Notes under the pieces: generated by a model
The model's database searches: none
Told to the model about the DNA's origin: nothing
Seen by the model: only the letters and a program-made list of their open reading frames with translations
Program-made: the position numbers and the translations under genes
DNA from: Microcella alkalica
GTDB lineage: Bacteria; Actinomycetota; Actinomycetes; Actinomycetales; Microbacteriaceae
NCBI RefSeq assembly: GCF_014137945.1
Contig: NZ_JACGWX010000006.1
Span: 124,001 to 188,000, forward strand
DNA: 64,000 nucleotides
Direction: 5' to 3'
Shown: positions 33,243 through 55,784 of the stretch, piece after piece
Position numbering within the stretch: the stretch's first letter is position 1
How the letters are laid out: every line of letters begins with the position of its first letter

Positions 33243-34184
33243 TCAGTTGCTGGTGCGATCGAGGTCGGCGGGGAGTGACGGCAGGCGCTCTCCTACGGAC
33301 TGCAGTTTCTCCCTCAGTACTGGGGCGAGCTTGCTTGCGATATCGTCGGCGCCCCAGCCCCCTGCATGCAGCTCCGTGAGCACAGGTTCGGGGTGCGACC
33401 AGAGTTGCAGGCGGTCGCCTCCGACGCCGATTACCTGGCCGGAGATGCCTGCCGCTGCGTCGGATACGAGAAACGCCACGAGGCCCGCTACGTCATCCGC
33501 CGTACCAAATCCGAGCTGTTCGCGGAAGAACGGAGGCATTGGCCGACCCGCGTCCTCCGCCTCGATCGCGGCGGCGAAGTACGGAACCGTGCGTGTCATG
33601 GCGGTCGCCGCCACAGGCACGACCGCGTTCACCATCACGCCCGAGCGCGTCATCTCAAGCGCCCAGGTTCGAACCATTCCGACAATGCCTGCTTTCGCGG
33701 CGGCATAGTTGGTCTGCCCGAAGTTGCCTCGCTGGCCCGTCGGCGATCCGATCGCGACGATGCGTCCCGGCACTTCCCGGGACTTGAAGTGCGCGAAAGC
33801 GGCCCTCGCGCAGGTGAATGTTCCGCGAAGGTGCACTTCGATCACCTGGTCGAAGTCGTCATCGGTCATCTTCAAGAGTGAGCGATCACGCAGGATTCCT
33901 GCGTTCGTGACGAGTGCGTCCAGCCTCCCGAAGGAGTCGAGCGCAGCCGCGACTAACTGGTCCGCGGTCTCGGTGCTACCCACCGGCGATACGACCGCCA
34001 CCGCCCGCCCGCCGGCATCGATGATGGTTTGGCAGGCTGTTGCTGCGACCTTGTCATCCACATCATTGATGACAATCGCAGCGCCGCGGCGCGCGAGTTC
34101 CTGAGCGTAGGAGAGGCCGAGCCCCCGCCCCGAGCCTGTGACGATGACAGCGCGATCAGTGAGGTCGACGAGCGATGCATTCAT
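33243..34184 (-). CDS. Short-chain dehydrogenase/reductase
   Basis: 313 residues from the ATG at 34184 (MNASLVDLTDRAVIVTG); an ATG 36 bases earlier is also open. Rossmann motif TGSGRGLGLSY, NNAG-equivalent VTNAGIL, catalytic Ser in IGSPTGQRGNFG and YAAAKAG with Tyr/Lys. The extra 60-residue tail after GVGGDRLQLW recalls multifunctional beta-oxidation type 3-hydroxyacyl-CoA dehydrogenases. First gene of the minus-strand operon, facing marR across two repeated operators; it would oxidise the hydroxyacyl-CoA made by MaoC. Confidence 0.9.
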   Translation of the reverse strand: MNASLVDLTDRAVIVTGSGRGLGLSYAQELARRGAAIVINDVDDKVAATACQTIIDAGGRAVAVVSPVGSTETADQLVAAALDSFGRLDALVTNAGILRDRSLLKMTDDDFDQVIEVHLRGTFTCARAAFAHFKSREVPGRIVAIGSPTGQRGNFGQTNYAAAKAGIVGMVRTWALEMTRSGVMVNAVVPVAATAMTRTVPYFAAAIEAEDAGRPMPPFFREQLGFGTADDVAGLVAFLVSDAAAGISGQVIGVGGDRLQLWSHPEPVLTELHAGGWGADDIASKLAPVLREKLQSVGERLPSLPADLDRTSN

Positions 34185-34201
34185 AGTCTCATTGAAGAAC
34201 A

Positions 34202-34227
34202 CAATCATTGAACTTGTCAATCATTGA
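34202..34227. promoter_or_regulatory. Tandem operator between SDR operon and marR (two CAATCATTGA copies)
   Basis: CAATCATTGA occurs at 34202-34211 and 34218-34227, 16 bases apart, each extending to the near palindrome TCAATGATTGA. They lie between the SDR start (34184) and the marR start (34255), so both promoters could be repressed by the MarR protein. Confidence 0.65.
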
Positions 34228-34254: not shown

Positions 34255-34692
34255 ATGACCGCCCCAACGCCGCTGGAAGAAGATACGAGCTTCCTCCTCG
34301 CTCGGGCCAGTGCGCTTGCGGTCCACGCGGCGAACGAGGCACTTGCGCCGCACGATCTTCGCGTCCGGCCATACGCGGTGCTTGCCCTGTCGGCGGGGGC
34401 AGAACCGCCAACACAGCGAGAGCTCGCCGATCACCTTCGCCTGGACCCGAGTCAAATCGTCGCGCTCGTGGACGAGCTGGAAAGCCGTGGCCTCGTGCGC
34501 AGGTCTCCTCACCCATCCGACCGGCGAACCCGCGTCGTCGGCATCACGGAGGCCGGAACGGAGCTTCTCAGCAGGGCGGAGCCCGACGTTCGTGACGCGG
34601 AGAAGCGCCGCACCGCAGGCTTGAGCGCAGAACAACGTCGTCAGCTGACCTCACTCTTGCGCGTGATCGCCTTCTCGGTTTCCAGCGACTGA
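34255..34692 (+). CDS. MarR-family regulator of the CoA-ligase operon
   Basis: 145 residues. Winged helix: RPYAVLALSAGAEPPTQRELADHLRLDPSQIVALVDELESRGLVRRSPHPSDRRTRVVGITEAG. Faces the SDR operon across the CAATCATTGA repeats, so it most probably represses that operon until a CoA thioester or free acid is present. Its last 42 bases overlap the convergent TetR gene. Confidence 0.88.
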   Translation: MTAPTPLEEDTSFLLARASALAVHAANEALAPHDLRVRPYAVLALSAGAEPPTQRELADHLRLDPSQIVALVDELESRGLVRRSPHPSDRRTRVVGITEAGTELLSRAEPDVRDAEKRRTAGLSAEQRRQLTSLLRVIAFSVSSD

Positions 34693-35295
34693 CGCCGCGA
34701 GCGCGGCGACGGCGACTTCCGCAGTGCGCCGGGCCTGTTCCGTGCGCTCCGGTGAGACCTCTACATCGGAGAGGAACACGTTGCCGAGTGCCATGGCCAG
34801 AAGGCTGTACGCGGTTCGGGCGATCTCATCTCGCGATGCGCTGGGCGCAGCGCGCGCTAGGAGCTCTTGGAGCTCCAGCTCGGAACTCCGGTAGGCGGCC
34901 ACGATCACGTCGCGCACGCTTTCGATCGTCCGTGCCGCATCCACGAAGGCCAGTGCAGCGATATTCTCCGGACCCGGTTCCGCGAACGCGCCAAACAGCC
35001 AGTCGAGCGCGGCATCGATGGTAGTCACGGCCGGCGGGAGGAACGAGCTGCTTCTATCCGCGGCGGCGGGCTGAGCCGTCGGTCCCGGAATCTCACCGAA
35101 ATACAGCAATCGCGCTGCGCCCGTGAGGATGTCCTCGCGATTGCCAGCAAAGTGTCGAACGTGTCCGCGCGCCATGCCAGCCTCCGCGGCTATGCCGTCG
35201 AGCGTTGCCCCTGTGAGTCCGCTCGAGGCGAGGCATCGGATCGTCGCCTCGAAAATCTGCCGCCGTCGAGCTTCGGCGACCGAGGGTCTTCCCAC
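34651..35295 (-). CDS. TetR-family regulator of the CocE-hydrolase operon
   Basis: 214 residues. N-terminal HTH: RRQIFEATIRCLASSGLTGATLDGIAAEAGMARGHVRHFAGNREDIL. The ligand domain is diverse. It lies divergent from the hydrolase operon with a palindrome (35315-35330) immediately upstream, the usual autoregulated arrangement. 3' end overlaps the convergent marR by 42 bases. Confidence 0.87.
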   Translation of the reverse strand: MGRPSVAEARRRQIFEATIRCLASSGLTGATLDGIAAEAGMARGHVRHFAGNREDILTGAARLLYFGEIPGPTAQPAAADRSSSFLPPAVTTIDAALDWLFGAFAEPGPENIAALAFVDAARTIESVRDVIVAAYRSSELELQELLARAAPSASRDEIARTAYSLLAMALGNVFLSDVEVSPERTEQARRTAEVAVAALAASVAGNREGDHAQE

Positions 35296-35330: not shown

Positions 35331-35392
35331 AGAACCGTTCATCACTCTAGCGTGTGGCCATCTACCGGAACGCGCGTATCGAGAGGATCAAC

Positions 35393-37051
35393 GTGACGGA
35401 CATCGTAAGGGTCGGGCCCGCCCCGGTCAGCGAGCTCGCCCGCGAGCGCCGCGTTCGGATGCGTGACGGCGTGCAACTCGCTACTGACGTCTACCTGCCA
35501 GACGGCGACGAAAGCCCCGGCGACACGATCCTGATTCGGCTGCCTTATGACAAATGCGGCCCGTACACATTCATCCCGCTTGTGGCGGAGTACTTCATGG
35601 AGCACGGTTACCGGGTCGTCGCGCAGGACGTTCGGGGAAAGTTCCGCTCCGACGGAGAGGCGCTGCTCTTCGTCAACGAGGCGCGTGACGGGTACGACAC
35701 GATCGATTGGATTGTCCAGCAGGGTTGGTCCAACGGCAGTGTGGCGATGTGGGGCGACAGTTACTACGGATACACGCAGTGGGCGGCAGTCTCAACGCAG
35801 CACCCTGCTCTGAAGGCGATCGCGCCTCGGGTCACCGGCACTCAGCTCGGCGAGCCCGTGCGCGACCCCGGCGCGATACGACCCGTCGAGTGGGCAGTCA
35901 CCTACCTGTATCCGCTGACGTACTTCCACTCCCAGGATGGGTTTGCGTGGGAACTCGACTCGAGTCGGCGCCCCTACAGTGCGCAAGCGGAGGAGGTGAT
36001 GTCCGCGATCGGAGCCCGCTCGATCTCATATGACCAATGGTTCCCATCGGCCGTGCATCTTCCGCGATTCGTCGATGGAAGTCCTTTCGACGCGCGGCCG
36101 GTTCCTGTGCTGCACACCATTGGACTGTGGGACAACTGTGCGCCACTTTCGTGGGCTGACGTCGCGGAGCTCGAGTCCCGTCCGGCGTGGGCGCTGAATC
36201 ACTACCTCCGGATCGAAGCAATGGACCACGAGTCGTACTACTTCGAGGACGGACCCGAGCGGCGGACTGAGAGTCGCACCGACGATCAGATCCGTAGCGA
36301 GCTTCCTCGAATGCTCGACCCTTCAATCGCCTTTTTCGAAGTGTTCGTGCGTGGGAACGGCCGTCCTGACGACATCCCTCGCGTCGCGTGGTCTCTGGCT
36401 GGAACCCCGGGGATGCGCGTCGCGGAACGGTGGCCCCCGTCGGGCCTTCGCGAGTGGGTGGTGTACGCCGCCGCCGATGGTTCGCTCGGCGTGGCGCAGG
36501 CAGAGGAAAGCGTCGTGGAGTGGGTTCATGATCCAGATGACCTCGTACCGTCGAGCGCAGCGAACGCATTTGGATTCCTCATGGAGCGACCAGACGAAGC
36601 ACCGCTTGGGGAGCGCCATGACGTCGTCGTCTTTACAGCGGGAGCGCAGGCCACGCCTGTCGATCTCGTGGGTCCGGCACGCGCGCGGGTTGAAGTGCAG
36701 TCGGACGGGCCAGTCATGGATGTCTTCGTCCGGCTGCTCGACGTAGCTCCAGACGGCTCCGCGCTTCGGATCGCTCGAGGTCAGGCACAAGTGAACCGGC
36801 CCCCCATCGTCGGTCCCACCGAGGTGACGATCGATCTCGGCCAAGTCAGCTATCGACTCGCGCCCGGCCATCAGCTGCGGGTGCATGTCTCGAGCAGTGA
36901 CCACCCCGAATACCTCGCTCAGCCCGGCACGGGCGAGCACCCCTGGTCGGCCCGTGAAACCCGCGTCAACCGGCAGCGACTCACGGTGGGCGGCCCGCAC
37001 GGCTTGGAGCTGACACTGAGCGTGCTTGACACGAAAGGAACCGCATCATGA
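35393..37051 (+). CDS. CocE/NonD-type hydrolase (X-Pro dipeptidyl-peptidase family)
   Basis: 552 residues from the GTG at 35393, preferred because GAGAGGA stands 5 bases ahead; a GTG at 35354 would add 13 residues. S15-type alpha/beta hydrolase: RVRMRDGVQLATDVYLP, QDVRGKFRSDG, nucleophile GDSYYGYTQ (Ser123), and a C-terminal jelly-roll domain (about 380-545) as in cocaine esterase and acyl-amino-acid hydrolases. The His is likely in MDHESYY. Cytoplasmic. It would cut an ester or amide. Overlaps DUF3237 by 4 bases (ATGA). Confidence 0.9.
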   Translation: MTDIVRVGPAPVSELARERRVRMRDGVQLATDVYLPDGDESPGDTILIRLPYDKCGPYTFIPLVAEYFMEHGYRVVAQDVRGKFRSDGEALLFVNEARDGYDTIDWIVQQGWSNGSVAMWGDSYYGYTQWAAVSTQHPALKAIAPRVTGTQLGEPVRDPGAIRPVEWAVTYLYPLTYFHSQDGFAWELDSSRRPYSAQAEEVMSAIGARSISYDQWFPSAVHLPRFVDGSPFDARPVPVLHTIGLWDNCAPLSWADVAELESRPAWALNHYLRIEAMDHESYYFEDGPERRTESRTDDQIRSELPRMLDPSIAFFEVFVRGNGRPDDIPRVAWSLAGTPGMRVAERWPPSGLREWVVYAAADGSLGVAQAEESVVEWVHDPDDLVPSSAANAFGFLMERPDEAPLGERHDVVVFTAGAQATPVDLVGPARARVEVQSDGPVMDVFVRLLDVAPDGSALRIARGQAQVNRPPIVGPTEVTIDLGQVSYRLAPGHQLRVHVSSSDHPEYLAQPGTGEHPWSARETRVNRQRLTVGGPHGLELTLSVLDTKGTAS

Positions 37052-37503
37052 TGCAACCTCAACTGGAGTTCGCGTTCGAGATTCGTGTCGACATCGCCCC
37101 GCATCTGCCGATCGGTCGCGGCCCGGACGAAAACCTCTCTTTCACACCGGTGACTGGCGGCACCGTTGCAGGTCCCCTTCTTAGCGGGAAGGTGCTTCCG
37201 GGCGGAGGGGATTGGGCGGTCGAGCGCAGCGGTACCGCGCAACTAGAAGCCCGGTATCTACTGGAAGCCCAGGATGGTGTAGTCATCGACATCCTGAACC
37301 GTGGCTACTATCGCGCTACCGCGGATGTCATGGCTCGCGTGGAGAGTGGCGAGAACGTGCCGGAGGAGGAGTACTACTTCCGGACCGCGCCGGTCTTCCA
37401 GACCGATGCGCCCCAGCACCGGTGGCTCGCCGAGCACCAGTTCCTCGGTCTCGCGCGAGACGAGGACGGCCAGGTCTGCGTCCGAGTTTTCGTCGTGCGC
37501 TGA
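37048..37503 (+). CDS. DUF3237 protein, copy 1
   Basis: 151 residues. FEIRVDIAPHLPIGRGPDENLSFTPVTGGTVAGPLLSGKVLPGGGDW, LEARYLLEAQDGVVIDILNRGY and the C-terminal YYFRTAPVFQTDAPQHRWL are family hallmarks; it forms a small beta-barrel with no assigned activity. Start overlaps the hydrolase stop, so equal amounts of both proteins are likely. A second copy is coupled the same way to an amidase at 46434. A helper or ligand-handling role for the hydrolase is inference. Confidence 0.85.
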   Translation: MMQPQLEFAFEIRVDIAPHLPIGRGPDENLSFTPVTGGTVAGPLLSGKVLPGGGDWAVERSGTAQLEARYLLEAQDGVVIDILNRGYYRATADVMARVESGENVPEEEYYFRTAPVFQTDAPQHRWLAEHQFLGLARDEDGQVCVRVFVVR

Positions 37504-39152
37504 TGTACGACTCGATCTTCGTCGGCGGGCTCGCCTTCACGGCAGGCTGGCCGACGTCTCGCGCCGTCGGAGTCGGAGTCCTGAATGGCCGCATCGCCGC
37601 GGTCGAGCCCGACGACGTCCTGCGCAAGGCGGGCGCACGCGATGTCATAGAGCTAGAGGGCGGACTCATCATGCCTGCCTTCCATGACGCGCACGCCCAT
37701 CCGATTCCGGGGGCGATTGAGCTGATGCAGTGCGATCTCTCCCAGGCACTCGACGCCGATGACGCCCTCCGACGGATAGCCGCGTATGCGTCGTCACACC
37801 TTGAGGAGGAATGGATCCTAGGCGGCGGATGGTCAATGCCCCACTTCGCCGGCGGCACGCCAACGCGGAAGGCCCTCGACGAGATCGTTCCCGATCGCCC
37901 GGTCGCCCTACTCAATCGGGACCATCATGGGGTTTGGGTCAACTCCCGTGCGCTCGAACGTGCCGGCATAGATCGCCACACCCTCGACCCAACGGATGGT
38001 CGGATCGAGCGCGAGCCCGACGGGTCTCCCGCCGGAGTTCTCCACGAGGGAGCGATGCACCTTCTCGACACTGTGCGCCCACGCGTGGAGTCGGGGTTCG
38101 CGCTTCGCGCCCTCAGACGCGCACACGAAGAGTTCTTCGCGCTCGGCGTCGTCGGGTGGCAAGACGCTTACGTGGGAGCGACAGCCGGCCTGGATGATCT
38201 GCTCGATACCTACCAGAGTGCGCTGTCCGAAGGACAGCTGAGTGCTCGTGTGACGGCGGCACTCTGGTGGCAGCGGGGCGTCGGGATCGGCCAACTGGAA
38301 GACCTGCTTGATCGGCGGGCGCGGGTCGAATCGCTCGGTCGACCCGACGTGCTCCTCGCTGACACGGTCAAGATCATGGTGGACGGGGTGGCCGAGAACT
38401 TCAGCGCGGCGATGTCGCAGCCTTACACCGACCCGCATGGGCATGGCTCCCATGGCTGCGGCACGACATTCCTCGACGCTGCCGAGCTCACCGAGGCTGT
38501 GATCGCCTTAGACGCTGCGGACTTCTCGGTGCACATGCATGCGCTTGGCGACAGGGCGGTGACGATTGCGCTCGATGCGCTCGAAGCCGCCCGTGCCGCA
38601 AATGGCCCCTCCGCCCGACGCCATCAGCTTGCGCATCTCCAAGTCGTCCAGGGCTCGGATGTTGATCGATTCGCCCAGGTCGGCGCGTTCGCGAACCTCC
38701 AGCTTCTCTGGGGCGCTGTCGACGATCAGCTGGAGGAGCTCACATTCCCCTTCCTGTCTCCTTCCCTTATCGATCGCCACTACCCGTTCCGCGAGCTTCG
38801 CGACGCCGGAGCGTCCCTTGCAGCAGGATCTGACTGGCCAGTGTCTAGTGCGAATCCGTGGGAAGCGATCCACGTGGCCGTAAACCGTGCCCTGCCCGGT
38901 CGGCGTGCGGACTCCCGGATCAATCCGTCTCAAGCGATCGATCTGGCGACTGCGCTCAGTGCGTACACGGCTGGGTCAGCCGCAGCGGGCGGGCGGGCGG
39001 GCTTTAGCGGAGCTCTTCGTCGAGGACTAGCGGCCGATCTGGTGGTGCTCTCGACCGACCCGTTCGCCGCGCCTCCCGAGTTGCTCCACAAGGTGCAGGC
39101 TCGACGCACCTACCTCGAGGGCCGGTGCGTTTTCGGAGACGGGCCATCGTGA
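37503..39152 (+). CDS. YtcJ-like metal-dependent amidohydrolase
   Basis: 549 residues; ATG directly at the DUF3237 stop (overlap of one base). Amidohydrolase superfamily: N-terminal beta-sandwich, PAFHDAHAHP (HxH), HEGAMHLLDTV, HMHALGDRAV, HLQVVQ and AGSDWPVSSANPWEAI. YtcJ relatives deacylate N-substituted formamides or aryl amides and enamides. Third gene of the TetR-controlled operon, so it probably acts on a product or sibling of the CocE substrate. 3' end overlaps the convergent TetR gene by 43 bases. Confidence 0.87.
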   Translation: MYDSIFVGGLAFTAGWPTSRAVGVGVLNGRIAAVEPDDVLRKAGARDVIELEGGLIMPAFHDAHAHPIPGAIELMQCDLSQALDADDALRRIAAYASSHLEEEWILGGGWSMPHFAGGTPTRKALDEIVPDRPVALLNRDHHGVWVNSRALERAGIDRHTLDPTDGRIEREPDGSPAGVLHEGAMHLLDTVRPRVESGFALRALRRAHEEFFALGVVGWQDAYVGATAGLDDLLDTYQSALSEGQLSARVTAALWWQRGVGIGQLEDLLDRRARVESLGRPDVLLADTVKIMVDGVAENFSAAMSQPYTDPHGHGSHGCGTTFLDAAELTEAVIALDAADFSVHMHALGDRAVTIALDALEAARAANGPSARRHQLAHLQVVQGSDVDRFAQVGAFANLQLLWGAVDDQLEELTFPFLSPSLIDRHYPFRELRDAGASLAAGSDWPVSSANPWEAIHVAVNRALPGRRADSRINPSQAIDLATALSAYTAGSAAAGGRAGFSGALRRGLAADLVVLSTDPFAAPPELLHKVQARRTYLEGRCVFGDGPS

Positions 39153-39712
39153 GGCAAGGCGTCTACGGCTTCAAGCAGAATGCTTCTCAACCGCGCCTCC
39201 CCCCAGAGCGCTGGGTCCTCAGCGCTCGCGATGATCGAACCGCGGAGCGCGAGATAAAGGATGTCCGCGACCAACTGAGGATTGCGGTGACCGGAGCGCG
39301 TCGCTGCGTCCGCGAGCTCCACCTGGAAATCCTCCGATTCGCGGCGCATCCGGTCCCGGAGCTGAGGATCAAGAGTGGCGTCGGCGACGATCTCGAGGAT
39401 GAGTGTACGGAGGGCCGGGTCGTCCGCGTTGGAGGTGAGGACGGCGTCGAGCATCGCCTCGAGTGGCGTGCTGTCGGCGTTGCGGGCGGCACCCTCACGC
39501 TCGGTCTTCCACCGGTCCCGAGCCCTGTCGAGCGCGTTCATAATCAGCGCCGACCGCGTGGGCAGATAGTTCGTCACGAGTGTGGTGGAACCCCCGAGAG
39601 CTCGAGCGACAGACCGGACCGTTACGGCCTGCGCTCCGTTCTCGCGCGCCACTCGAACCGTCGCGTCCGCGATGTCAGCAAGGCGCTGATCGGAGTCAAC
39701 CGGGCGGGGCAT
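39110..39712 (-). CDS. TetR-family regulator of the ABC-transporter operon
   Basis: 200 residues. HTH: RLADIADATVRVARENGAQAVTVRSVARALGGSTTLVTNYLPTRSALI. C-terminal ligand domain of the BetI-like type (LRTLILEIVADATLDPQLRDRM). Divergent from the transporter operon with a 15-base palindrome between, and its 3' end overlaps the YtcJ gene by 43 bases. Proposed role: repressing uptake when substrate is absent. Confidence 0.87.
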   Translation of the reverse strand: MPRPVDSDQRLADIADATVRVARENGAQAVTVRSVARALGGSTTLVTNYLPTRSALIMNALDRARDRWKTEREGAARNADSTPLEAMLDAVLTSNADDPALRTLILEIVADATLDPQLRDRMRRESEDFQVELADAATRSGHRNPQLVADILYLALRGSIIASAEDPALWGEARLRSILLEAVDALPHDGPSPKTHRPSR

Positions 39713-39756
39713 GTCGCGAGCTTATCTGCGACCGTAACGCAAATGCAACATTGATG

Positions 39757-39771
39757 TACAACGCTGTTGTA
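39757..39771. promoter_or_regulatory. TetR operator TACAAC-GCT-GTTGTA
   Basis: Perfect six-base arms around three bases, 44 bases upstream of the tetR start and 62 bases before the binding-protein start. It lies in an AT-richer island (AACATTGATG...GTAGTACAG). Shape and place fit a TetR dimer. Confidence 0.7.
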
Positions 39772-39833
39772 GTACAGTCCTTTTCATCGTCACCGGTGAC
39801 GTGCCGGGACACCCGTACCCCTGGAGGAAACGC

Positions 39834-41492
39834 ATGAGAATCTCCGACGGCGACGTCGTCGCCCGGCGCTGGCGCAATGGCGCGCTTCTGAGCGCGGTCG
39901 CCGCGCTTCTTCTCACTGGATGCTCGGCTCCTGAAGCAGCTCCTACCGACGAGCCCGCGCCGATCACTGAGTTGACGTCTTCGCTTCCCGCGGCGACCAC
40001 TGCCGTCGACGAGGTCCGCTGGGGCCTCGTCGAGGGGGAGCCCCGCTCACTCGTGCCCGGCGCCGACTACAACTTCGTGTGGCCGAACATCTGCGACAGC
40101 CTGCTGCGCGTCTCGCCGGACTTCGGTATCGAGCCGGGTCTGGCCGAGCGCGCAGAGTTCGTCGACCCGGTCACGTTCGTCATCAATCTCCGACAGGGGG
40201 TGACGTTCTCGGACGGTAGCGCCGTGACCCCCGAGGATGTCGTCTTCAGTCTGGAGCGCAGCCGTCAGGATGTCATGTCGCCGTACTTTGGCGCGTTCGT
40301 CCTCGTCTCGACCATCGAGGTCACCGGCGAAAACCAGGTGACGGTGAACTTCACAGCACCTGACTCGATCTTCCGTGAGGCGATGACGGGCGGTCCTGGC
40401 GCCATCCTCAGCAAGACCTTCAGCGAACAGCAGGGTCCGGCACTCGGCACTTCCGCCGGAGAGATTCTCTGTGCCGGCCCGTACGCCCTGGAAAGTTGGA
40501 CCCCCGGCAGCGACATCACCCTCGTCGCGAATGATGGTTACTGGGACGGTGCCCCGCTGGTCCAGAAGCTGGTGTTCTCTTTCATTCCTGATGGAACGAC
40601 GCTCACGAATGCGCTTCTTGCAGGTGAGATCGACGGCGCCTTCAACGTGCCGCCGGCCAGCCGAGCCGCGTTCGAGGATTCGGATGAAGGCCGACTGATC
40701 GTGGGCCCATCGACCGCATCCTTCTCATTCGGGCCCACGCGGACTGACGGGCCGGGCGCAAACCCGAAGATCCGGCAGGCTCTCAGCATGGCGATCGATC
40801 GGGAGCAGTACATCCAGACCGTCCTCAACGGACTGGGCGAAGCGCAGAGCACCTTCGTCGCCCCCTTCACCTGGGAGGGTTCGGAGGCCGCGAGCGTGTA
40901 TCAGGCGGCATACGACGCGCTGCCGGAGCCTGCTTTCGATCTCGAAGCGGCCCGAGCCCTGGTCGAGGAATCCGGCGAAGATCCCTCCGTACCGATCCGC
41001 ATCGCGATTCCGGCCGGCAGCAAGGAGCTCTCCCAGACCGCGGCTATCGTGCAGGCGGCTGCGCAGCAGATCGGCCTGACCGTGGAGATCGACGAGCGAC
41101 AGGCCGCCGATTTCGCCTCCCTCTTCCTGCCCGATCCCGCCGCCAGAGAGAGCGTGGACTTCCTGGCGACCGCCGGCTACCAGGAGACGCCCGGGGTGCT
41201 GACCTATCCGCAGCTCTTCGTGCTTCCGCCTGAGATCGGCGGCATCTTCAACTGGACTGCGTACGCGGATCCCGAGGTGGTGGGCGCCGTGCAGGCCGCG
41301 CGGACCACTCCAGATCCTGTCGGCGCGGCCGAGGCCTACGTCGCCGCGCAGGAAATCTTCGCTCCCGAGCTCCTCCAGGTGACACTGGCCGGCGCTTACC
41401 ACACCACCTTCTTGAATAACCGTCTCACTGGCGTGGTGACGTCCGTCGCCTCGTACTCGAGCCCCTGGGCGCTGCACCTCGGCGGTCAGTGA
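39834..41492 (+). CDS. ABC transporter substrate-binding lipoprotein (peptide/opine family 5)
   Basis: 552 residues from ATG 39834 with GGAGG ahead. Lipoprotein signal with lipobox LLTGC, lipidated Cys30. SBP family 5 signature: VRWGLVEGEPRSLVPG, FVINLRQGVTFSDGSAVTPEDVVFSLERSR, GPYALESWTPGSDITLVAND, NPKIRQALSMAIDREQYI. Anchored outside, it delivers a peptide-sized or amide solute to the following permeases. An in-frame ATG 33 bases earlier is rejected because it would spoil the signal. Confidence 0.93.
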   Translation: MRISDGDVVARRWRNGALLSAVAALLLTGCSAPEAAPTDEPAPITELTSSLPAATTAVDEVRWGLVEGEPRSLVPGADYNFVWPNICDSLLRVSPDFGIEPGLAERAEFVDPVTFVINLRQGVTFSDGSAVTPEDVVFSLERSRQDVMSPYFGAFVLVSTIEVTGENQVTVNFTAPDSIFREAMTGGPGAILSKTFSEQQGPALGTSAGEILCAGPYALESWTPGSDITLVANDGYWDGAPLVQKLVFSFIPDGTTLTNALLAGEIDGAFNVPPASRAAFEDSDEGRLIVGPSTASFSFGPTRTDGPGANPKIRQALSMAIDREQYIQTVLNGLGEAQSTFVAPFTWEGSEAASVYQAAYDALPEPAFDLEAARALVEESGEDPSVPIRIAIPAGSKELSQTAAIVQAAAQQIGLTVEIDERQAADFASLFLPDPAARESVDFLATAGYQETPGVLTYPQLFVLPPEIGGIFNWTAYADPEVVGAVQAARTTPDPVGAAEAYVAAQEIFAPELLQVTLAGAYHTTFLNNRLTGVVTSVASYSSPWALHLGGQ

Positions 41493-41523
41493 TGCGCACG
41501 ACGCTGGACAGGGGAGAAGAGGG

Positions 41524-42486
41524 ATGATGGGCGCACGAACTGTGAGGCGACTGCTCTCGAAGATCGGCGCGCTACTCCTGACCCTCTTCCTGTCCAGCGT
41601 CGTGATCTTCTCCGCAGTGCTGTTGACCCCCGGGGACCCCGTAGTAGCACTCGCCGGCGGGGTGCGCCCGACTCCAGAAATGATCGACGCGATCCGCGAG
41701 CAGTACCAGCTCGATCAGCCCGTGTGGGTGCAGTACCTCTCGTGGGTCGGGTCGGTATTGACAGGAGACCTCGGCACCTCCTTCGTCTATAAGACCGAAG
41801 TCATTGACCTCATTGCTCCCCGGTTCGGCATCACTTTCCTGCTCGTTATTTACACGCTCGTGCTCATCGTCGTCTTCGGCGTCGGCTCGGGGATTCTGGC
41901 CGCAGTGCGACGTGGCCGGGTTGAGCAGGCTGTGCTCGTCGGGACGTCGCTGGGCGTCGCAATGCCAACATTCGTCGTCGCGATCGTTCTGATTTGGATC
42001 TTCGGGAGGGTGCTCGGTTGGTTCCCTGTCTACGGACCCGGGGAGGGCCTTCTCGACAACCTCTACCACCTGACCCTGCCCGCAGTCTCCCTCGCCGTTC
42101 TCTACATCGCATACATCAGCCGGATCACCCGAGGCGCCGTTGTCGCCCAGCTGAGTTCCGAGCACGTCGAGACTGCGCGCGTGCGGGGAATCCCGCCGAG
42201 CAGGATCTTCCGACGCCATGTTTTTCTCAATGCCTCACCACAGCTGCTCTCCGTCGCGGGCACGACCATCGCGAGCCTCTTCGCGGTCGCCGCTATTGCC
42301 GAGCACGCTTTCGGATTGGGTGGCATCGGTGTCCTCCTCACGGAGGCCGCAGCACGCAAGGACCTCCCTGTCGTGCAGACGCTGTCCCTGATGCTCGTCG
42401 CATTGTTCGTCGTCCTCAACGCAATGGTCGACGTGGTGATCGCCATCATCGATCCCGATTCAGCCCGCCCGAGGAGGGACGCATGA
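41524..42486 (+). CDS. ABC permease, DppB-type
   Basis: 320 residues; a second ATG at 41527 is equally possible. Six membrane helices, with the early LTPGDPVVALAGG segment and QYQLDQPVWVQYLSW characteristic of DppB/OppB, and the EAA loop EHVETARVRGIPPSRIFRRHVFLNA that docks the ATPase. Overlaps the next permease by 4 bases. Confidence 0.93.
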   Translation: MMGARTVRRLLSKIGALLLTLFLSSVVIFSAVLLTPGDPVVALAGGVRPTPEMIDAIREQYQLDQPVWVQYLSWVGSVLTGDLGTSFVYKTEVIDLIAPRFGITFLLVIYTLVLIVVFGVGSGILAAVRRGRVEQAVLVGTSLGVAMPTFVVAIVLIWIFGRVLGWFPVYGPGEGLLDNLYHLTLPAVSLAVLYIAYISRITRGAVVAQLSSEHVETARVRGIPPSRIFRRHVFLNASPQLLSVAGTTIASLFAVAAIAEHAFGLGGIGVLLTEAAARKDLPVVQTLSLMLVALFVVLNAMVDVVIAIIDPDSARPRRDA

Positions 42487-43346
42487 GTGTCGGTCAAATC
42501 GCCGCCGGCCGGGTGCCAGCGATCTCACGTAGGGCTGCCAAGCGCGATCCGCTACTCGTAGCCGCTCTGGTGACGCTCTGCGCCATAGCCCTGGTCGTCA
42601 TCGCAGGCCCATTGATCAGCGCATTTGATCCGAACCAGCTGTACGCGGGTCCTATCTCGGGCGGGCCCTCGCTTACGCACCCCCTGGGCACCGACGACCT
42701 CGGGCGTGACATCCTCGCGCGGGTCATCGCTGGGGGTCCCGCGAGTGTGATCGGCCCACTTGTTGTGGTCGCTCTGTCGACGACCCTCGGGTCGACGGTC
42801 GCTCTTCTCTCAGCGTGGTTCGGCGGTTGGGTCGATGGGATCCTGACCCGCGTCATCGAGGTGATCTTCGCGATCCCCGGCCTGGTACTCGCCGTCCTCG
42901 CAGTGTCGATGTTTGGCAAGGGACTGGTGGCGCCGGTCATCGCATTGTCGATCGCCTACTTGCCGGTCGTCTCGCGACTTGTGCGGGCAGGAGCGCGGGC
43001 CGAGCTCGGCAAGCCCTACATGGCAGCTCTACGCATCCAAGGCGTCAGCTCAACAGCCATACTCTTCCGACACCTCATCCCGGCGCTGCTACCCACGATC
43101 CTCGCGCAGGGAGCGCTGGGGTTCGGCTATGCGATGCTCGACCTTGCGGCCATCTCCTTCCTCGGACTGGGAGCGCCGCCGCCCTCCTCCGACTGGGGCG
43201 TCATGATTGCCTCTGGCCAACCGTCCCTTCTCAACGGTGCTCCCGAGCAGTCCCTGTTCCCGGCACTCCTGGTTGTGCTCACCGTACTGTCCGTAAACAT
43301 TGTCGGCGCCCGCGTCACCGTCTGGGCGGAGGCGAAGAGCTCATGA
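42483..43346 (+). CDS. ABC permease, DppC-type
   Basis: 287 residues from the ATG inside the previous stop. DppC-type: N-terminal soluble stretch, SAFDPNQLYAGP, HPLGTDDLGRDILARVI, six helices and the EAA loop YMAALRIQGVSSTAILFRHLIPA. Forms the channel with the DppB-type subunit. Overlaps the ATPase gene by 4 bases. Confidence 0.93.
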   Translation: MSVGQIAAGRVPAISRRAAKRDPLLVAALVTLCAIALVVIAGPLISAFDPNQLYAGPISGGPSLTHPLGTDDLGRDILARVIAGGPASVIGPLVVVALSTTLGSTVALLSAWFGGWVDGILTRVIEVIFAIPGLVLAVLAVSMFGKGLVAPVIALSIAYLPVVSRLVRAGARAELGKPYMAALRIQGVSSTAILFRHLIPALLPTILAQGALGFGYAMLDLAAISFLGLGAPPPSSDWGVMIASGQPSLLNGAPEQSLFPALLVVLTVLSVNIVGARVTVWAEAKSS

Positions 43347-45028
43347 CACGCACTGTTCTAGACATCGACAAGCTCGCCGTGACCGGGCCAGATGGCCAGG
43401 CGCTTGTCGCCGATCTCTCGCTGACAGTGTCGGCGGGCGAGGTCGTCGGGCTTGTCGGCGAGTCGGGCTCAGGCAAGACGCTCACCGTGCGGGCAGTCGC
43501 CGGGTTACTTTCCGACGGCCTCGTTGCCAGCGGCACGATCCGAGTCGACGGCGAGAACCTCGCCGAGCTCCCCGAGCAACACGCGCGCGCAGTGCGTGCT
43601 CGCCGTCTCGGCATGGTCTTCCAGACTCCGCGAGCTCACCTGAACCCGCTGCGCACGATCGGCGACTTCATGATCGAGGCACTCGTCGCGGTGGGCGGGG
43701 AGAAACCAGCGGCTGCGGAGAGTCGCGCGGCCGAGCTTCTCGCGGAGGTTGGTATCGCGGATCCGGAGCGTCGGCTTCGGCAACGGCCCAGCGAACTGTC
43801 TGGCGGGCTCCTCCAGCGCGTCATGATCGCGGCGACACTCGCTATGGACCCGCCGCTACTTCTCGCCGACGAGATCACCACGGCCCTCGACGTGACGACA
43901 CAGGAGGAGGTCATGGCCGTACTCGCCGACCTCAGGCGCAGTAGGGGCCTCGCGATGCTCTTCATCACGCACGATCTCGCGCTCGCGGGCGCAGTGTGCG
44001 ACCGGATTGCAGTCATGCAAGGCGGCCGCATCGTCGAGACGCTGCAGGCGGAGACAATGCGTGCTGACGCGCAGCACCCGTACACGCAGCGCCTCCTTTC
44101 CGCGACCCTGCCTCCGGATCTTATGCAGGGGGAGCCTGCGACCGAGCCGGTACTGGTTGTCGACGGGTTGCGCAAGACGTACTCCGTGAGATCGGCAAGC
44201 GGCGGACATCGCGAGGAGTTCGTCGCCGTTGACGAGGTTGGCTTCACGCTCGCACCTGGGGGGTCACTCGGCATCGTCGGCGAGTCCGGCTCTGGCAAGT
44301 CGACCACAGCCCGAATCATTTGCGGCCTCGAGCGCGCCGACTCCGGCATCATCCTGGTGAAGGGTGAGGACTGGACCCGCGTGCCACGCTCGACAACCGG
44401 GTGGCGCCGACGAGCTCGGATCGCGCAGATGGTCTTCCAGGATCCGTACCAGTCCCTCGACCGCAGACAGACAGCTCGGCAGTGCCTGCGCGAAGCGATT
44501 TCCGTCCACCGCCCACGCGAGTCGAGGCCTGCGCTCGATGCGCGCGTTGATGAGCTGTTGGAAGCTGTCCTACTCACTCCGGACCTCGCCGACCGGCGGC
44601 CCCGCTCGCTTTCGGGGGGTCAGCGTCAGCGTGTCGCAATAGCACGGGCGCTCGCGGCCGAGCCCGAGATTCTGGTGCTGGACGAAGCCGTCTCGGCCCT
44701 CGACGTCACCACCCAGGTCGAGATCCTCACGCTTCTCGACCGAATCCGACGGGAAACGGGGGTCGCGCTCCTCATGATCTCGCACGACCTCTCCGCTGTG
44801 CGTCGCGTCTGCGACCACGTCGTGGTGATGCGCGGTGGCCGGATCGAAGAATCGGGCCCTATTGCTGAGGTGCTCGATCGTCCGCGAGCCGATTACACCC
44901 GTTTGCTTCTTGCTTCCGTCCCACACGAAGGCTGGGTCCCGCAACGCCGGATTCCGACCAGGACCGCAGCGCTGCCGACGATCGCCACCTCGAACCTCCC
45001 CATCCTCGATCCTCAAGGAGAACGATGA
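43343..45028 (+). CDS. Fused two-domain ABC ATPase (DppD-DppF type)
   Basis: 561 residues, two complete nucleotide-binding domains in one chain. Domain 1: Walker A GESGSGKT (39-46), LSGGLLQR (152-159), Walker B LLLADEITTALD. Domain 2: Walker A GESGSGKST (313-321), LSGGQRQR, Walker B ILVLDEAVSALD. The signature of domain 1 (LLQR for the usual QRQR) is degenerate, so domain 1 may have the weaker site. Powers import by the two permeases. Overlaps amidase by 4 bases. Confidence 0.93.
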   Translation: MTRTVLDIDKLAVTGPDGQALVADLSLTVSAGEVVGLVGESGSGKTLTVRAVAGLLSDGLVASGTIRVDGENLAELPEQHARAVRARRLGMVFQTPRAHLNPLRTIGDFMIEALVAVGGEKPAAAESRAAELLAEVGIADPERRLRQRPSELSGGLLQRVMIAATLAMDPPLLLADEITTALDVTTQEEVMAVLADLRRSRGLAMLFITHDLALAGAVCDRIAVMQGGRIVETLQAETMRADAQHPYTQRLLSATLPPDLMQGEPATEPVLVVDGLRKTYSVRSASGGHREEFVAVDEVGFTLAPGGSLGIVGESGSGKSTTARIICGLERADSGIILVKGEDWTRVPRSTTGWRRRARIAQMVFQDPYQSLDRRQTARQCLREAISVHRPRESRPALDARVDELLEAVLLTPDLADRRPRSLSGGQRQRVAIARALAAEPEILVLDEAVSALDVTTQVEILTLLDRIRRETGVALLMISHDLSAVRRVCDHVVVMRGGRIEESGPIAEVLDRPRADYTRLLLASVPHEGWVPQRRIPTRTAALPTIATSNLPILDPQGER

Positions 45029-46437
45029 ACGCCACTCCGCTCTGGCAACTGAGCACTCTCGAGCTTGCCGAGTCGATCAGGCTCGGACGCACGTCCGCGC
45101 GCGAGGTCATCGACGCCCACCTCGATCGGATCGATGAGGTGAATCCTCACCTGAACGCTCTCACCGTCGTCTTCCACGATCGCGCTCGTGCACTCGCGGA
45201 CGAAGTGGATGCTGGTCGCGTCACCGGCACCTTCGCCGGCGTGCCATTCACCGTCAAGGAGAATATCGACCTCACGTGGTCCGCCAGCACCAGCGGGTGG
45301 ACCTTCCTCGCCGACGCGGTGCCTTCGGCGGACGCAACGATGGTGCGTCGCCTCCTTTCCGCCGGGGCTATTCCGATCGGTCGGGGAAACATGCCCGACT
45401 TCGGACTTCGATGGGACACCGTAAACGATCTATTCGGCCGCACACTCAATCCGTGGGATGAGGATCGGACAGCGGGAGGCTCGAGCGGCGGAGATGCAGT
45501 CGCAGTGGCGGCGGGCATGGCGCCGCTCGGACTCGGCAACGATTACGGGGGATCCCTTCGTTTGCCGGCGTACGCGGCGGGAGTGTGTGCGCTTCGTCCC
45601 TCGGAGGGCAGAATCCCTTCTCCAGTGGCGGTAAGCAATGAGCCGGTCCCGCTCACGCTCCAGCACTTCGCAGTCAACGGCCCGATCGCGCGCACCGTCG
45701 ACGACCTAGACGCAGCCTTCTCGATCATGCACGGAGCTGACGAGCGAGACCCACTGGCGGTAACGCTCCCGCATCCGAGGACGTACGAGGGTCCGCGCCG
45801 GGCGGCGGTCGTCCGGAACCCTCTCGGTTGGGGAGTCGAGTCCTCCGTGGCGCTCGGGATTGAACGCGCGGCCGAAGCGCTCGCCGAACGCGGGTGGCAG
45901 ATCGTTGACGCCGAACCGCCGATGCTTGAGGAGGCCGCCGTCCTCTGGCGCAGACTGTCGACCGCAGAAATGCTGGGTGCGTTTCTCCCAGGCGGTCTAC
46001 CCCAGCCGCTCAGCGACGGCGCTACTCAGTACTTTCTCGATGCAGCAAGCGAGACCGAACCGTTCGCGGCCGTCGAAGATTACGGCATGGCGTGGGCGCG
46101 GAGAATCACGGTTGCGGCGGCATGGCATGCGTTCCAGGTCGAGAACCCCGTCATTCTCGGGCCCGTATCCACGTCTCGGATGCCCGCGGTCGGCTTCGAT
46201 CTGGAAGGGCCGGCTGCCGCTACAACGCTATGGCGGTCGCACGCCTTGCTCGTCGCGGTCAACCTGCTGGGTCTACCGGCAGTCGCGGTCCCCGCTGGAC
46301 TGGACGTCGAGGGCCTTCCCACCGGAGTTCAACTGATCGGTCCGCGTAACGGGGACCACATCGCGCTCGCCGCCGCCCGCGATGTCGAAGCGGTTCTCGG
46401 CCACGTGCGACCCGAGCTCACAGCGGTCGCCCGATGA
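45025..46437 (+). CDS. Amidase (amidase-signature family)
   Basis: 470 residues. Catalytic triad visible: Lys78 in FTVKENID, Ser153/154 in TAGGSSGGD and nucleophile Ser177 in NDYGGSLRLPA (family usual form DIGGSIR). It hydrolyses an amide to acid and ammonia or amine in the cytoplasm. Translationally coupled to the transporter upstream and DUF3237 downstream, so it most likely acts on the imported compound. Confidence 0.92.
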   Translation: MNATPLWQLSTLELAESIRLGRTSAREVIDAHLDRIDEVNPHLNALTVVFHDRARALADEVDAGRVTGTFAGVPFTVKENIDLTWSASTSGWTFLADAVPSADATMVRRLLSAGAIPIGRGNMPDFGLRWDTVNDLFGRTLNPWDEDRTAGGSSGGDAVAVAAGMAPLGLGNDYGGSLRLPAYAAGVCALRPSEGRIPSPVAVSNEPVPLTLQHFAVNGPIARTVDDLDAAFSIMHGADERDPLAVTLPHPRTYEGPRRAAVVRNPLGWGVESSVALGIERAAEALAERGWQIVDAEPPMLEEAAVLWRRLSTAEMLGAFLPGGLPQPLSDGATQYFLDAASETEPFAAVEDYGMAWARRITVAAAWHAFQVENPVILGPVSTSRMPAVGFDLEGPAAATTLWRSHALLVAVNLLGLPAVAVPAGLDVEGLPTGVQLIGPRNGDHIALAAARDVEAVLGHVRPELTAVAR

Positions 46438-46895
46438 GCCTCCTCAAGCCCTCGCTCCAGTTCGTATTCGAGCTCAGAGTGGAAGTCGCGGCACCGGTAC
46501 GGGTCGGTCGTACGGAATCCGAGAGCCTCAACGTCACTCCGATTACCGGGGGCGTCGTGGAAGGCCCGCGACTGAATGGCCGGGTCCTGGGGGTCGGCGC
46601 CGATTGGTGGGTGACCCGAGGATCCACAACGCAACTCGATGCGCGTTATCTCATCGAGTCGGCGGATGGTGCCGCCATCGATGTCGTGAACAGAGGCTAT
46701 TGGCACGCCGGGCCCGAACTCGAGGAGCGGCTCCGTTCGGGGGAGCCGCTCGCCGAGGACGAGTTGTATTACCGGACAGCCTTCGTTTTCCAGACAGGCG
46801 CAGCCGACTATCGATGGCTAACCGAGGCTCAGTTTGTGGGGTACGCCCGACCCGAAGAGGGACTCGTCTGCATCCGCGTGTTCAGGCTGGATTGA
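46434..46895 (+). CDS. DUF3237 protein, copy 2
   Basis: 153 residues, clear paralogue of the protein at 37048: FELRVEVAAPVRVGRT, NVTPITGGVVEGPRLNGRV, LDARYLIESADGAAIDVVNRGYWHAG, YYRTAFVFQTGAADYRWL. It begins inside the amidase stop (ATGA). Identity is partial, so the two copies are diverged and probably specialised for their partner hydrolases. Last gene of the operon, convergent with pobA. Confidence 0.85.
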   Translation: MSLLKPSLQFVFELRVEVAAPVRVGRTESESLNVTPITGGVVEGPRLNGRVLGVGADWWVTRGSTTQLDARYLIESADGAAIDVVNRGYWHAGPELEERLRSGEPLAEDELYYRTAFVFQTGAADYRWLTEAQFVGYARPEEGLVCIRVFRLD

Positions 46896-46902
46896 TTCCG
46901 GG

Positions 46903-48078
46903 TCAGATCGGCCACCCCGTATACGCCTCGGCAAGATAGGTCTGGCCCGCCGTCGACTGCGCGATCGAGCGCAGTTCGCCGAGCTGGCGGCGGCGGTCGA
47001 AGTCGGACGCGTCGTCGGTGACATGCAGCATGGATGTCATCCACCAGGAAAAGTGCTGCGCCTTCCAGATGCGCTGCATTGCGCGCTGCTCGAACGTGTC
47101 GATGAGGCGCGAGTCGTTCTCCTGTAGAAGTGCTCGCAGAGCTTCGTGGAGCAAGGCGACATCGGCCACGGCGAGGTTCATGCCTTTGGCCCCCGTCGGC
47201 GGCACGGTGTGCGCGGCGTCACCGATGATCGCAATACGGTGCTTTCGCATGCCGTGCGACACGAAGCTGCGGAAACGCAGAACGTCGCGCTGAAAGATTG
47301 GCCCCTCGATCAAATCGGTGCCCGGCACCCGCTTCTGAATGTTTTCCCAGACCTCGGTCTCGCTGAGCGAGCTCGGATCGAGTTTCGGGTCGCACTGGAA
47401 ATACATCCGCTGCACGGTCTCGCTGCGCTGGCTGATGAGAGCGAAGCCGTCGGGGGAGTTGCTGTAGATGAGCTCGTTCGAACTCGGGGGCGCCTCGCAC
47501 AGGATGCCAAACCACGCAAACGGGTACTCGCGGAAGTAGCCGCCCTGCATCGACCCGACGACCGAGGGACGGACAACGCTACGAGAGCCATCGGCCCCGA
47601 CAACGAAATCGGCCTCGATGACGAGCTCTTTCCCGTCGGCGTCTACCGCGAGCACGCGGGGGTGCTCCTGGTCGGACTCATCGATCCCAGTGACGGTGAC
47701 GCCGAAGCGGAGGTCCTGCCCAGCGGCGACTCGCGCTGCGATGAGATCCTTGAGCACCTCATGCTGCGGGTAGAGCCAGGCGCTGCGGCCGGTGAGCGAG
47801 GGGAAGTCGATGCGGTGGCCCTCGCCGTCGAAGCGCAGCTCGATGCCGTCGTGGCGGTGGCCGACGATGCGGGCGCGGCTGTGCTCGCCGAGGCGGTCGA
47901 GCAGCTCGACGGTGCCCTGCTCGAGGATGCCCGCGCGGATGGTGCTCTCGATCTCACCTTGCGTGCGCAGATCGACGACGATCGAGTCGATGCCCGCCTC
48001 GTCCAGAAGGTGCGCGAGCAGCAAGCCGGCGGGGCCCGCGCCGACGATGGCGACGGGCGTGCGGAGGGTCGTGGTCAT
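46903..48078 (-). CDS. pobA: 4-Hydroxybenzoate 3-monooxygenase
   Basis: 391 residues (family about 394). FAD motif VAIVGAGPAGLLLAHLLDEAG, NADPH/FAD motif DFVVGADGSRSVVR, and GDAAHTVPPTGAKGMNLAVAD near the C-terminus; substrate-loop text STIRAGILEQGTVELL is specific to PobA. It converts 4-hydroxybenzoate to protocatechuate. The ATG 48078 follows GAAGGAG; a longer frame starts at 48159 without family sequence. Same strand as the IclR gene 126 bases upstream, so probably controlled by it. Confidence 0.95.
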   Translation of the reverse strand: MTTTLRTPVAIVGAGPAGLLLAHLLDEAGIDSIVVDLRTQGEIESTIRAGILEQGTVELLDRLGEHSRARIVGHRHDGIELRFDGEGHRIDFPSLTGRSAWLYPQHEVLKDLIAARVAAGQDLRFGVTVTGIDESDQEHPRVLAVDADGKELVIEADFVVGADGSRSVVRPSVVGSMQGGYFREYPFAWFGILCEAPPSSNELIYSNSPDGFALISQRSETVQRMYFQCDPKLDPSSLSETEVWENIQKRVPGTDLIEGPIFQRDVLRFRSFVSHGMRKHRIAIIGDAAHTVPPTGAKGMNLAVADVALLHEALRALLQENDSRLIDTFEQRAMQRIWKAQHFSWWMTSMLHVTDDASDFDRRRQLGELRSIAQSTAGQTYLAEAYTGWPI

Positions 48079-52599: not shown

Positions 52600-52600
52600 C

Positions 52601-53023: not shown

Positions 53024-53135
53024 CGGCTCTCGGGGAGCGCTATCGGCCATGCGCGCTGTTGCAGGGCCACCTACCGGCTTCGCGCCCATTGATCCCTTCC
53101 GGCGTAGTGGCGGTACCGCTAGGATGTACGCATAA

Positions 53136-53159: not shown

Positions 53160-53181
53160 ACGCGAAAGGAGCGGCCGACTG

Positions 53182-55780: not shown

Positions 55781-55784
55781 GCGC

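Follow-up and report, generated by a model that had tools for sequence, protein, structure and literature searches.

Two DUF3237 genes adjoining hydrolase genes in a probable phenolic-catabolic island of Microcella alkalica

In the actinobacterium Microcella alkalica, each of two genes of the DUF3237 family (PF11578) begins four bases inside the end of a hydrolase gene, a CocE/NonD-type ester hydrolase for copy 1 and an amidase for copy 2, which raises the question of whether DUF3237 proteins serve hydrolases or act as enzymes themselves. We analysed a stretch of 64,000 nucleotides around these genes (contig NZ_JACGWX010000006.1, positions 124,001 to 188,000; hereafter the window). No PF11578 gene besides these two copies was found in the genome of 2.74 Mb, and both match all 149 of the 149 model positions. 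Copy 1 is followed with a 1-base overlap by an Amidohydro_3 gene, and copy 2 is the last gene of a six-gene ATP-binding cassette (ABC) transporter–amidase operon. The initial annotation had placed the genes and both 4-base overlaps correctly, as well as the separate operons with separate TetR proteins; divergent TetR-type genes precede both, the second scoring below the Pfam cut-offs. Its description of the pairs as fused holds for overlapping genes, but no fusion protein is encoded. A 4-base overlap alone is ordinary here, since this spacing occurs in 11 of the 43 co-directional gene pairs of the window. Gene-to-DUF3237 junctions were nevertheless enriched in such overlaps compared with other pairs less than 100 bp apart (32/62 versus 137/610; Fisher's test, P = 4e-6), in a comparison that ignores relatedness and depends on our start calls.

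DUF3237 is widespread and includes several solved structures to which no function is assigned, and few members have known reactions, and a recurrent hydrolase link makes this largely unassigned family testable. Our analysis indicates that DUF3237 is best seen as an enzyme of its own in an island for hydroxycinnamate conjugates and not as a hydrolase accessory. Published systems are compared here as described in the available passages of PMC12607616, PMC12997858, PMC11323797, PMC8704240, PMC8262933, PMC3460631, PMC10765951, PMC7593625, and PMC5479773.

Neighbours of DUF3237 genes

PF11578 was present in 25/249 genomes of the family of M. alkalica and in 68/393 genomes of its class (drawn evenly, with some genomes in both samples), and in 14/149 genomes of a phylum survey, from which neighbourhoods were examined at places inside the class. 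The family and class searches also reported some long open frames, which are candidate gene fusions. Ninety-nine stretches were fetched, and 110 distinct DUF3237 genes were counted in these and in the window. Duplicates of the window or of locus L021 (L001, L002, and L004), one identical protein (130 reduced to 129), and four weak class matches (G273, G277, G382, and G489) were left out of the counts, and loci L003–L013, chosen as homologues of copy 2, stood outside the 110 genes. Partner labels derive from clusters that we built ourselves, with Pfam scans of single representatives. As background we took genes of the same loci, including the 64 kb of the window, that lie four or more positions away; it is thus local, not genome-wide.

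A co-directional neighbour lay within 100 bp of 75 of the 110 genes. CocE genes accounted for 14/98 operon neighbours versus 0/875 distant genes (Fisher's test, P = 5e-15), Amidohydro_3 genes for 5/98 versus 2/875 (P = 2e-4), amidase genes for 3/98 versus 1/875 (P = 4e-3), and flavin adenine dinucleotide (FAD)-dependent monooxygenase genes for 15/98 versus 3/875 (P = 3e-13), P values that overstate the enrichment because related loci are not independent. The CocE counts are lower bounds, because the gene caller took mirror-strand frames instead of CocE genes in L009, L010, L027, L083, and L086, a fault that the background may share. By script, a CocE, amidase, or Amidohydro_3 gene adjoined 20/110 DUF3237 genes and none of these adjoined 90/110; with the missed CocE genes of L027 and L086, the numbers became 22/110 and 88/110. 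Other partners among the 110 genes were FAD_binding_3 monooxygenases (15), SnoaL-like proteins (6), and glyoxalase-like proteins (3).

Pfam scans that included L003–L013 identified PepX_C in 15, Amidase in 11, and FAD_binding_3 in 11 of 77 upstream genes, and Peptidase_S15 in 6, Amidohydro_3 in 5, FAD_binding_3 in 4, and Amidase in 1 of 39 downstream genes. In a control scan of 100 of the 350 eligible genes, Amidohydro_3 had two matches, and the CocE and Amidase families were outside the 25 commonest families, each of which had at least two matches.

In a tree of 152 DUF3237 domains (148 columns, with many weak forks), CocE adjoined DUF3237 in several separate clades. These comprised the clade of copy 1, a clade of the taxonomic families f22 and f24 that includes an Embleya plasmid gene (CocE by label in L084, L087, and L088, and recovered in L086), another f22 clade with CocE downstream of DUF3237 in seven loci (L045–L047, L049, and L110–L112) and a monooxygenase upstream in L049, L050, and L110, and a Microbacteriaceae clade (L014, L018, and L006). 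The three monooxygenases scanned, which came from different clades, all scored above the NF005720 cut-off.

These data demonstrate that the link between DUF3237 and hydrolases is real, and that it is neither universal nor exclusive to hydrolases. The initial annotation had proposed the link and read it as that of a dedicated partner, an idea to be dropped if most DUF3237 genes elsewhere were unconnected with hydrolases. The enrichment bears out the link itself. By count, most genes do lack a hydrolase neighbour, yet in the other clades the association goes well beyond chance. The dedicated partner or carrier is disfavoured by the many genes without a hydrolase, by the monooxygenase as a partner of similar frequency, and by published relatives, which the available passages describe without a hydrolase partner. 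A hydrolase–DUF3237 link was not met in the parts of the literature looked through, which is no claim that it is absent from print.

Further arrangements recurred in the surveyed loci. Two DUF3237 genes of distant clades flanked a single FAD monooxygenase gene in L062 (7570–9325), L069 (6954–8692), L072 (3731–5553), and L075 (8137–9877), representing a second recurrent pairing of DUF3237. In L078–L081, L085, and L096 (taxonomic family f11 of the class), a SnoaL-like gene (cluster 32, of which one member was scanned) lay directly upstream of DUF3237 with a 4-base overlap. DUF3237 stood between genes for a pyridoxal phosphate (PLP)-dependent decarboxylase and a carbon-nitrogen hydrolase in L036 (6980–9834) and L037 (7013–9861), and the hydrolase of L036 resembles N-carbamoylputrescine amidase, with a score below the cut-off of that model.

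A duplicated pair in a proposed catabolic island

The initial annotation had viewed the coupling to unrelated hydrolases as repeated, but the phylogeny of the copies does not support two independent events. Copies 1 and 2 are 52% identical and belong to two sister clades (15 and 16 rows; 98/88 at the joining node). In clade 1, CocE lies directly upstream in 13 of the 15 rows (10 by label and 3 after recovery of missed CocE genes), and in clade 2 an amidase lies upstream in 11 of the 16 rows and Amidohydro_3 downstream in 3. All 10 genomes behind L003 and L005–L013 carry two DUF3237 genes on one strand, 7.8 to 9.6 kb apart, and 8 of them have one gene in each clade (the second genes of L003 and L008 were outside the tree test); these genomes were picked as copy-2 relatives and therefore say nothing on the frequency of the pair. 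This genome (G000) and G037, G235, G230, and G131 likewise have one gene in each clade, at distances of 5.7 to 9.5 kb, so that the pair occurs within one island in 15 genomes of three families. Further relatives of copy 2 were found in Microbacteriaceae, Demequina, and Arthrobacter. Because the clades are sisters and the pair is co-inherited, these sequence relationships point to one duplication inside one island rather than two independent recruitments, and the copies are thus assigned as sister paralogues of a conserved island. At eight positions each paralogue clade is invariant but the two clades carry different residues, a pattern that two specificities would produce, although it may also reflect drift. 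Neither DUF3237 nor the Amidohydro_2 protein considered below had a match in four sampled genomes of the same genus (G068, G126, G171, and G213), and the island therefore looks accessory in the genus.

The placement of the island in a pathway is well supported. Upstream lies an operon for a coenzyme A (CoA) ligase, a MaoC-like hydratase, an acyl-CoA dehydrogenase, an Amidohydro_2 protein, and a short-chain dehydrogenase/reductase (SDR), with a divergent MarR gene; downstream are PobA, a pcaHGBDCIJF set, and pcaR-type regulators. PhdC and CouO are Amidohydro_2 proteins, and the Amidohydro_2 protein of the window is a candidate ketohydrolase of this type. The operon resembles the phd pathway of Corynebacterium glutamicum, for which the passages available to us list a ligase (PhdA), a hydratase (PhdE), a dehydrogenase (PhdB), a ketohydrolase (PhdC), and a MarR regulator (PhdR), in having CoA ligase, hydratase, dehydrogenase, candidate ketohydrolase, and MarR gene types. 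It differs from the phd and cou operons in its MaoC-type hydratase and acyl-CoA dehydrogenase, and the passages on those operons mention neither DUF3237 nor hydrolase neighbours.

Phd/cou-type genes and DUF3237 modules also meet, in other gene orders, in L083, L056, L018, L010, L011, and L139. Within 16.5 kb, L083 holds genes for an amidase, MaoC, CoA ligase, Amidohydro_2, SDR, MarR, DUF3237, an ABC transporter, and CocE. An amidase–DUF3237 pair abuts CoA ligase–MaoC–Amidohydro_2 in L139 and L010, while in L011 CoA ligase–MaoC and MarR are one gene further from the pair; L018 joins CocE–DUF3237 with CoA ligase, MaoC, SDR, MarR, and a PobA-cluster gene. A third DUF3237 gene in L136 and L137 overlaps the preceding CoA ligase gene by 4 bases and is the last of that operon, in which no CocE, amidase, or Amidohydro_3 gene was seen, and a PobA-cluster gene is nearby. 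The middle of the L137 operon was hidden by a mirror frame, and a separate search located the Amidohydro_2 protein there. Among the 249 family genomes, this protein occurred in 16/25 genomes with DUF3237 versus 16/224 others (Fisher's test, P = 1e-10), and at 50% identity or more in 12/25 versus 15/224 (P = 4e-7), with at most nine candidates scored per genome. The two genes lay within 10 kb of each other in 4/16 family genomes holding both (G000, G037, G206, and G180) and in 4/9 such homologue genomes (G766, G768, G771, and G772).

Among 51 plasmid records with a DUF3237 relative, 23 were opened, and 19 of these were annotated in the stretch. Genes for feruloyl-CoA synthase or hydroxycinnamoyl-CoA hydratase/lyase were found in 5/19 stretches (L115, L125, L129, L130, and L131) and tannase/feruloyl esterase genes in 4/19 (L127, L128, L130, and L131), and an alpha/beta hydrolase gene lies directly upstream of DUF3237 in L126. 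The DUF3237 protein of an Acinetobacter cluster of feruloyl-CoA synthase, porin, and tannase genes (L131 5914–6450) matches the solved protein 4pux with 351.8 bits over 159 residues; hcaF of Acinetobacter, a gene of unassigned function, may also be a DUF3237 gene, a lead on which a literature search gave nothing useful. L122 carries dipeptide-type ABC genes, DUF3237, carotenoid oxygenase, GMC oxidoreductase, a further DUF3237, and aldehyde dehydrogenase, which are the gene types of the Phc dimer pathway. A Sagittula plasmid (L119 3319–6456) encodes an ABC transporter, an amidase, DUF3237, and agmatinase, which may point to agmatine-type phenolamides. The window copies share a 56-row clade (99/87) with L115, L119, L122_9105, both L117 genes, L121, L125, and L129, and L122_9105 sits in the GMC-oxidoreductase/carotenoid-oxygenase operon. 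In L119, the annotation also shows a short stretch with a beta-lactamase prediction between the amidase and DUF3237 genes.

Candidate reactions of the DUF3237 proteins

The initial annotation had called the family unassigned, which overlooks published relatives. According to the passages available, PinX of sphingomonads has a DUF3237 domain, is 42% and 38% identical to PhcG and PhcF, respectively, and is predicted, and listed in a review, as a lariciresinoate decarboxylase that opens the furan ring; PhcF and PhcG are a homologous, stereoselective pair of DCA-CC decarboxylases; and PhnH of Penicillium herquei is an intramolecular hydroalkoxylase that has a catalytic glutamate and forms a ring at a phenol (PDB IDs: 6jjs and 6jjt). 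In the Phc and Pin systems as described there, oxidases (PhcC/PhcD and PinY) make the acid and a lignostilbene-type dioxygenase cleaves the product, whereas the island of the window has hydrolases in place of oxidases and its genome lacks a carotenoid oxygenase (PF03055), the family of the stilbene-cleaving enzyme.

An AlphaFold2 model of copy 2 (mean predicted local distance difference test, 85.6) aligned with 3c5o at a Z score of 21.6 and a root mean square deviation of 2.2 over 148 residues. The UPF0311 structures 3c5o, 3g7g, and 4pux, whose titles give no function, belong to the same family and fold (Z 20 to 22). PhnH, which unlike the window copies is fungal and biosynthetic, has the same fold (Z 18.0 over 129 residues, with 23% identity in the structural alignment), and the solved DUF3237 proteins including PhnH together gave Z 16 to 22. 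Diels-Alderases, dirigent proteins, and allene oxide cyclases gave Z 8 to 10. Polar residues conserved in the family include Asp57 (96%), Arg114 (81%), Tyr112 (80%), Asp78 (77%), and Tyr72 (73%) in the numbering of copy 2.

Taken together, we tentatively propose, at somewhat less than an even chance, that copies 1 and 2 are small beta-barrel enzymes of a catabolic island for conjugated hydroxycinnamate-type plant phenolics, with a lyase or isomerase step. The dipeptide-type ABC transporter would import a phenolic ester or amide, from which CocE (ester) or the amidase (amide) would free an aromatic acid in the cytosol. The adjoining DUF3237 would then perform lyase/isomerase chemistry on the freed acid, probably without a cofactor and most likely as acid/base-assisted making or breaking of a phenolic C–O ring bond, with or without CO2 loss; such ring-bond chemistry is suggested by the decarboxylative ring opening of PhcF, PhcG, and PinX and the ring closure of PhnH. 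CoA ligase, MaoC hydratase, SDR, and Amidohydro_2 would degrade the product to 4-hydroxybenzoate or a related compound, which would go on through PobA and the protocatechuate pathway. Each paralogue would have its own substrate or stereoisomer, like PhcF and PhcG. Among the roles offered by the initial annotation, a product-modifying enzyme fits best, and a carrier is unsupported.

Several observations weigh against this proposal. The phd/cou labels rest on gene order and domains, and several NCBIfam scores are below cut-off; the co-occurrence figures of Amidohydro_2 and DUF3237 ignore genome size and relatedness, and in 17 of the 25 genomes with both the two do not lie within 10 kb of each other. 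The neighbourhoods of L114, L132, L134, and L135 (Klebsiella, Pantoea, Halostagnicola, and Roseateles) showed no tie to phenolics. The tree of 152 domains was built without PhcF, PhcG, and PinX, and any particular closeness of the window copies to them is hypothetical. PF03055 is absent from this genome and did not clearly co-occur with DUF3237 in the family genomes (2/25 versus 4/224, P = 0.11), and for these reasons the lignostilbene route was rejected and the full Phc pathway is not claimed. A designed barrel (Z 8.8) and outer-membrane barrels (Z 7 to 8) score near dirigent proteins, so that likeness to dirigent proteins, Diels-Alderases, and allene oxide cyclases is weak evidence. An Arg conserved in about 75% of the family is replaced by Leu in the clade of the window copies (Leu32 in copy 2 and Leu30 in copy 1). 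Arg32 as a decarboxylase marker was rejected, because L122_9105 in its oxidoreductase/dioxygenase operon also has Leu there.

Within the same pathway, DUF3237 could instead work on the freed acid, or on the CoA ester of that acid, as an isomerase, cyclase, hydratase, or tautomerase and not as a decarboxylating or ring-opening lyase, an alternative that we regard as rather unlikely although still a serious candidate. PhnH closes its ring without loss of CO2 in the description available, allene oxide cyclases, dirigent proteins, and Diels-Alderases have similar folds (Z 8 to 10), and a carotenoid oxygenase is lacking from the genome; moreover, the third gene in L136 and L137 ends an apparent monomer pathway, where a decarboxylase would compete. 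On the other hand, the bacterial members for which we found a published activity, in the passages seen, are decarboxylases. A housekeeping or stress role towards reactive phenolics, such as quenching of quinone methides, would make DUF3237 a passenger in catabolic operons and would suit the varied neighbours (SnoaL-like, glyoxalase-like, PLP decarboxylase, and sugar genes); retention of the pair in one island across 15 genomes exceeds what is expected of a dispensable helper, and we judge this role improbable. Slightly less probable still is a role as dedicated accessory to the hydrolase of the preceding gene, for example as its carrier, chaperone, or subunit. Tight overlaps and the strong enrichment of CocE in several separate clades favour it, but most DUF3237 genes lack such a neighbour, FAD monooxygenases are about as common, CocE lies downstream in the seven f22 loci, DUF3237 also follows a CoA ligase, and relatives are described as acting alone in the passages available.

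A more specific form of our proposal, which we consider speculative and improbable, is that the island provides a hydrolytic entry to neolignan-type conjugates, namely esters or amides of 8-5'-linked hydroxycinnamate dimers. It is motivated by the facts that 8-5'-diferulate is DCA-CC and that hordatines are 8-5' dimer amides. Cell-wall diferulates or hordatine- or lignanamide-like phenolamides would be imported whole, CocE or the amidase would free the carboxylate of the dihydrobenzofuran ring, and the two DUF3237 proteins, with complementary stereochemistry, would remove CO2 and open the ring. Such a route would do without PhcC/PhcD-type oxidases and without a lignostilbene dioxygenase, and the cinnamate arm that is left would be processed by the phd/cou operon. 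If this dimer reading is right, it would reveal how bacteria feed on phenolic conjugates of plants, compounds that abound in cereal bran and in the cell walls of plants. Independently of this reading, placing DUF3237 in islands that combine hydrolases with hydroxycinnamate genes in actinobacteria, with parallels on some proteobacterial plasmids, narrows the substrates to a short list and offers an upstream reaction with which DUF3237 can naturally be coupled. Published support for hordatine as a substrate was rejected: the one paper met in the literature search concerns a fungal amidohydrolase, and its authors report a knockout no less and no more sensitive to hordatine than the wild type.

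Gene map of the island

The modules of the window follow the order phd/cou-type operon, CocE–DUF3237–Amidohydro_3, ABC transporter–amidase–DUF3237, pobA, and pca (Table 1). The CoA ligase belongs to a sequence cluster that is also found near DUF3237 in L083, L056, L139, and L136–L138. The closest solved relatives of the CocE/NonD hydrolase are cocaine esterases, and a lipobox-like LLLTGCS was recognised by eye in the solute-binding lipoprotein.

Table 1. Features of the island in window coordinates, with the evidence for each assignment
Feature	Coordinates	Strand	Evidence
Acyl-CoA ligase, PhdA/CouL-like position in phd/cou-type operon	29167..30693	-	best NCBIfam NF004837, 444 bits (cut-off 476)
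MaoC-like dehydratase/hydratase	30693..31154	-	PF01575, 87.4 bits
Acyl-CoA dehydrogenase	31151..32356	-	NF052270, 406 bits, below cut-off 600
Amidohydro_2 protein, candidate PhdC/CouO-type ketohydrolase	32353..33240	-	PF04909, 178.5 bits
SDR dehydrogenase, PhdB-like position	33243..34208	-	PF13561, 157.7 bits
MarR-type regulator, PhdR/CouR-like position	34255..34692	+	NCBIfam MarR-type models (Saro_0803, HpaR, others), all below cut-off
TetR-type regulator, divergent from CocE operon	34651..35295	-	PF00440, 26.7 bits (cut-off 24)
CocE/NonD-type ester hydrolase	35354..37051	+	TIGR00976, 256.2 bits (cut-off 66.3)
DUF3237 copy 1, CocE-linked clade	37048..37503	+	PF11578, 139.4 bits (cut-off 24); tree
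Amidohydro_3 hydrolase	37503..39152	+	PF07969, 291 bits
TetR-type regulator, divergent from ABC-amidase operon	39110..39712	-	PF13977, 26 bits (cut-off 27); PF00440, 19.3 (cut-off 24)
Solute-binding lipoprotein, dipeptide-type ABC transporter	39834..41492 (start may be 39801)	+	PF00496, 226 bits
ABC permease	41524..42486	+	PF00528, 112.6 bits
Putative ABC permease 2	42483..43346	+	cluster with same-position genes of other islands
Fused double ABC ATPase	43343..45028	+	PF00005, two stretches, 207 bits
Amidase-signature amidase	45025..46437	+	PF01425, 276.1 bits; nearest solved 8xac, 5h6s
DUF3237 copy 2, amidase-linked clade	46434..46895	+	PF11578, 136.6 bits; AlphaFold2 model
4-hydroxybenzoate 3-monooxygenase (PobA)	46903..48078	-	NF006091, 483 bits (cut-off 351; scanned as 46903-48159)
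PcaR/PobR-type regulator	48205..48957	-	TIGR02431, 123.7 bits, below cut-off 284.75
Protocatechuate branch pcaH, G, B, D, C, I, J, F and pcaR-type regulator	49064..56603	+	TIGR models

For the pca set, TIGR02422, 02423, 02425, 02429, 02428, and 02431 scored above cut-off and the pcaB, pcaD, and pcaF models below it. The frame at 50444–51820 scored higher with a nitrosuccinate lyase model, likewise below cut-off. Elsewhere in the window, two short minus-strand frames at 18414–19206 resemble, by eye, a split IS5-type transposase.

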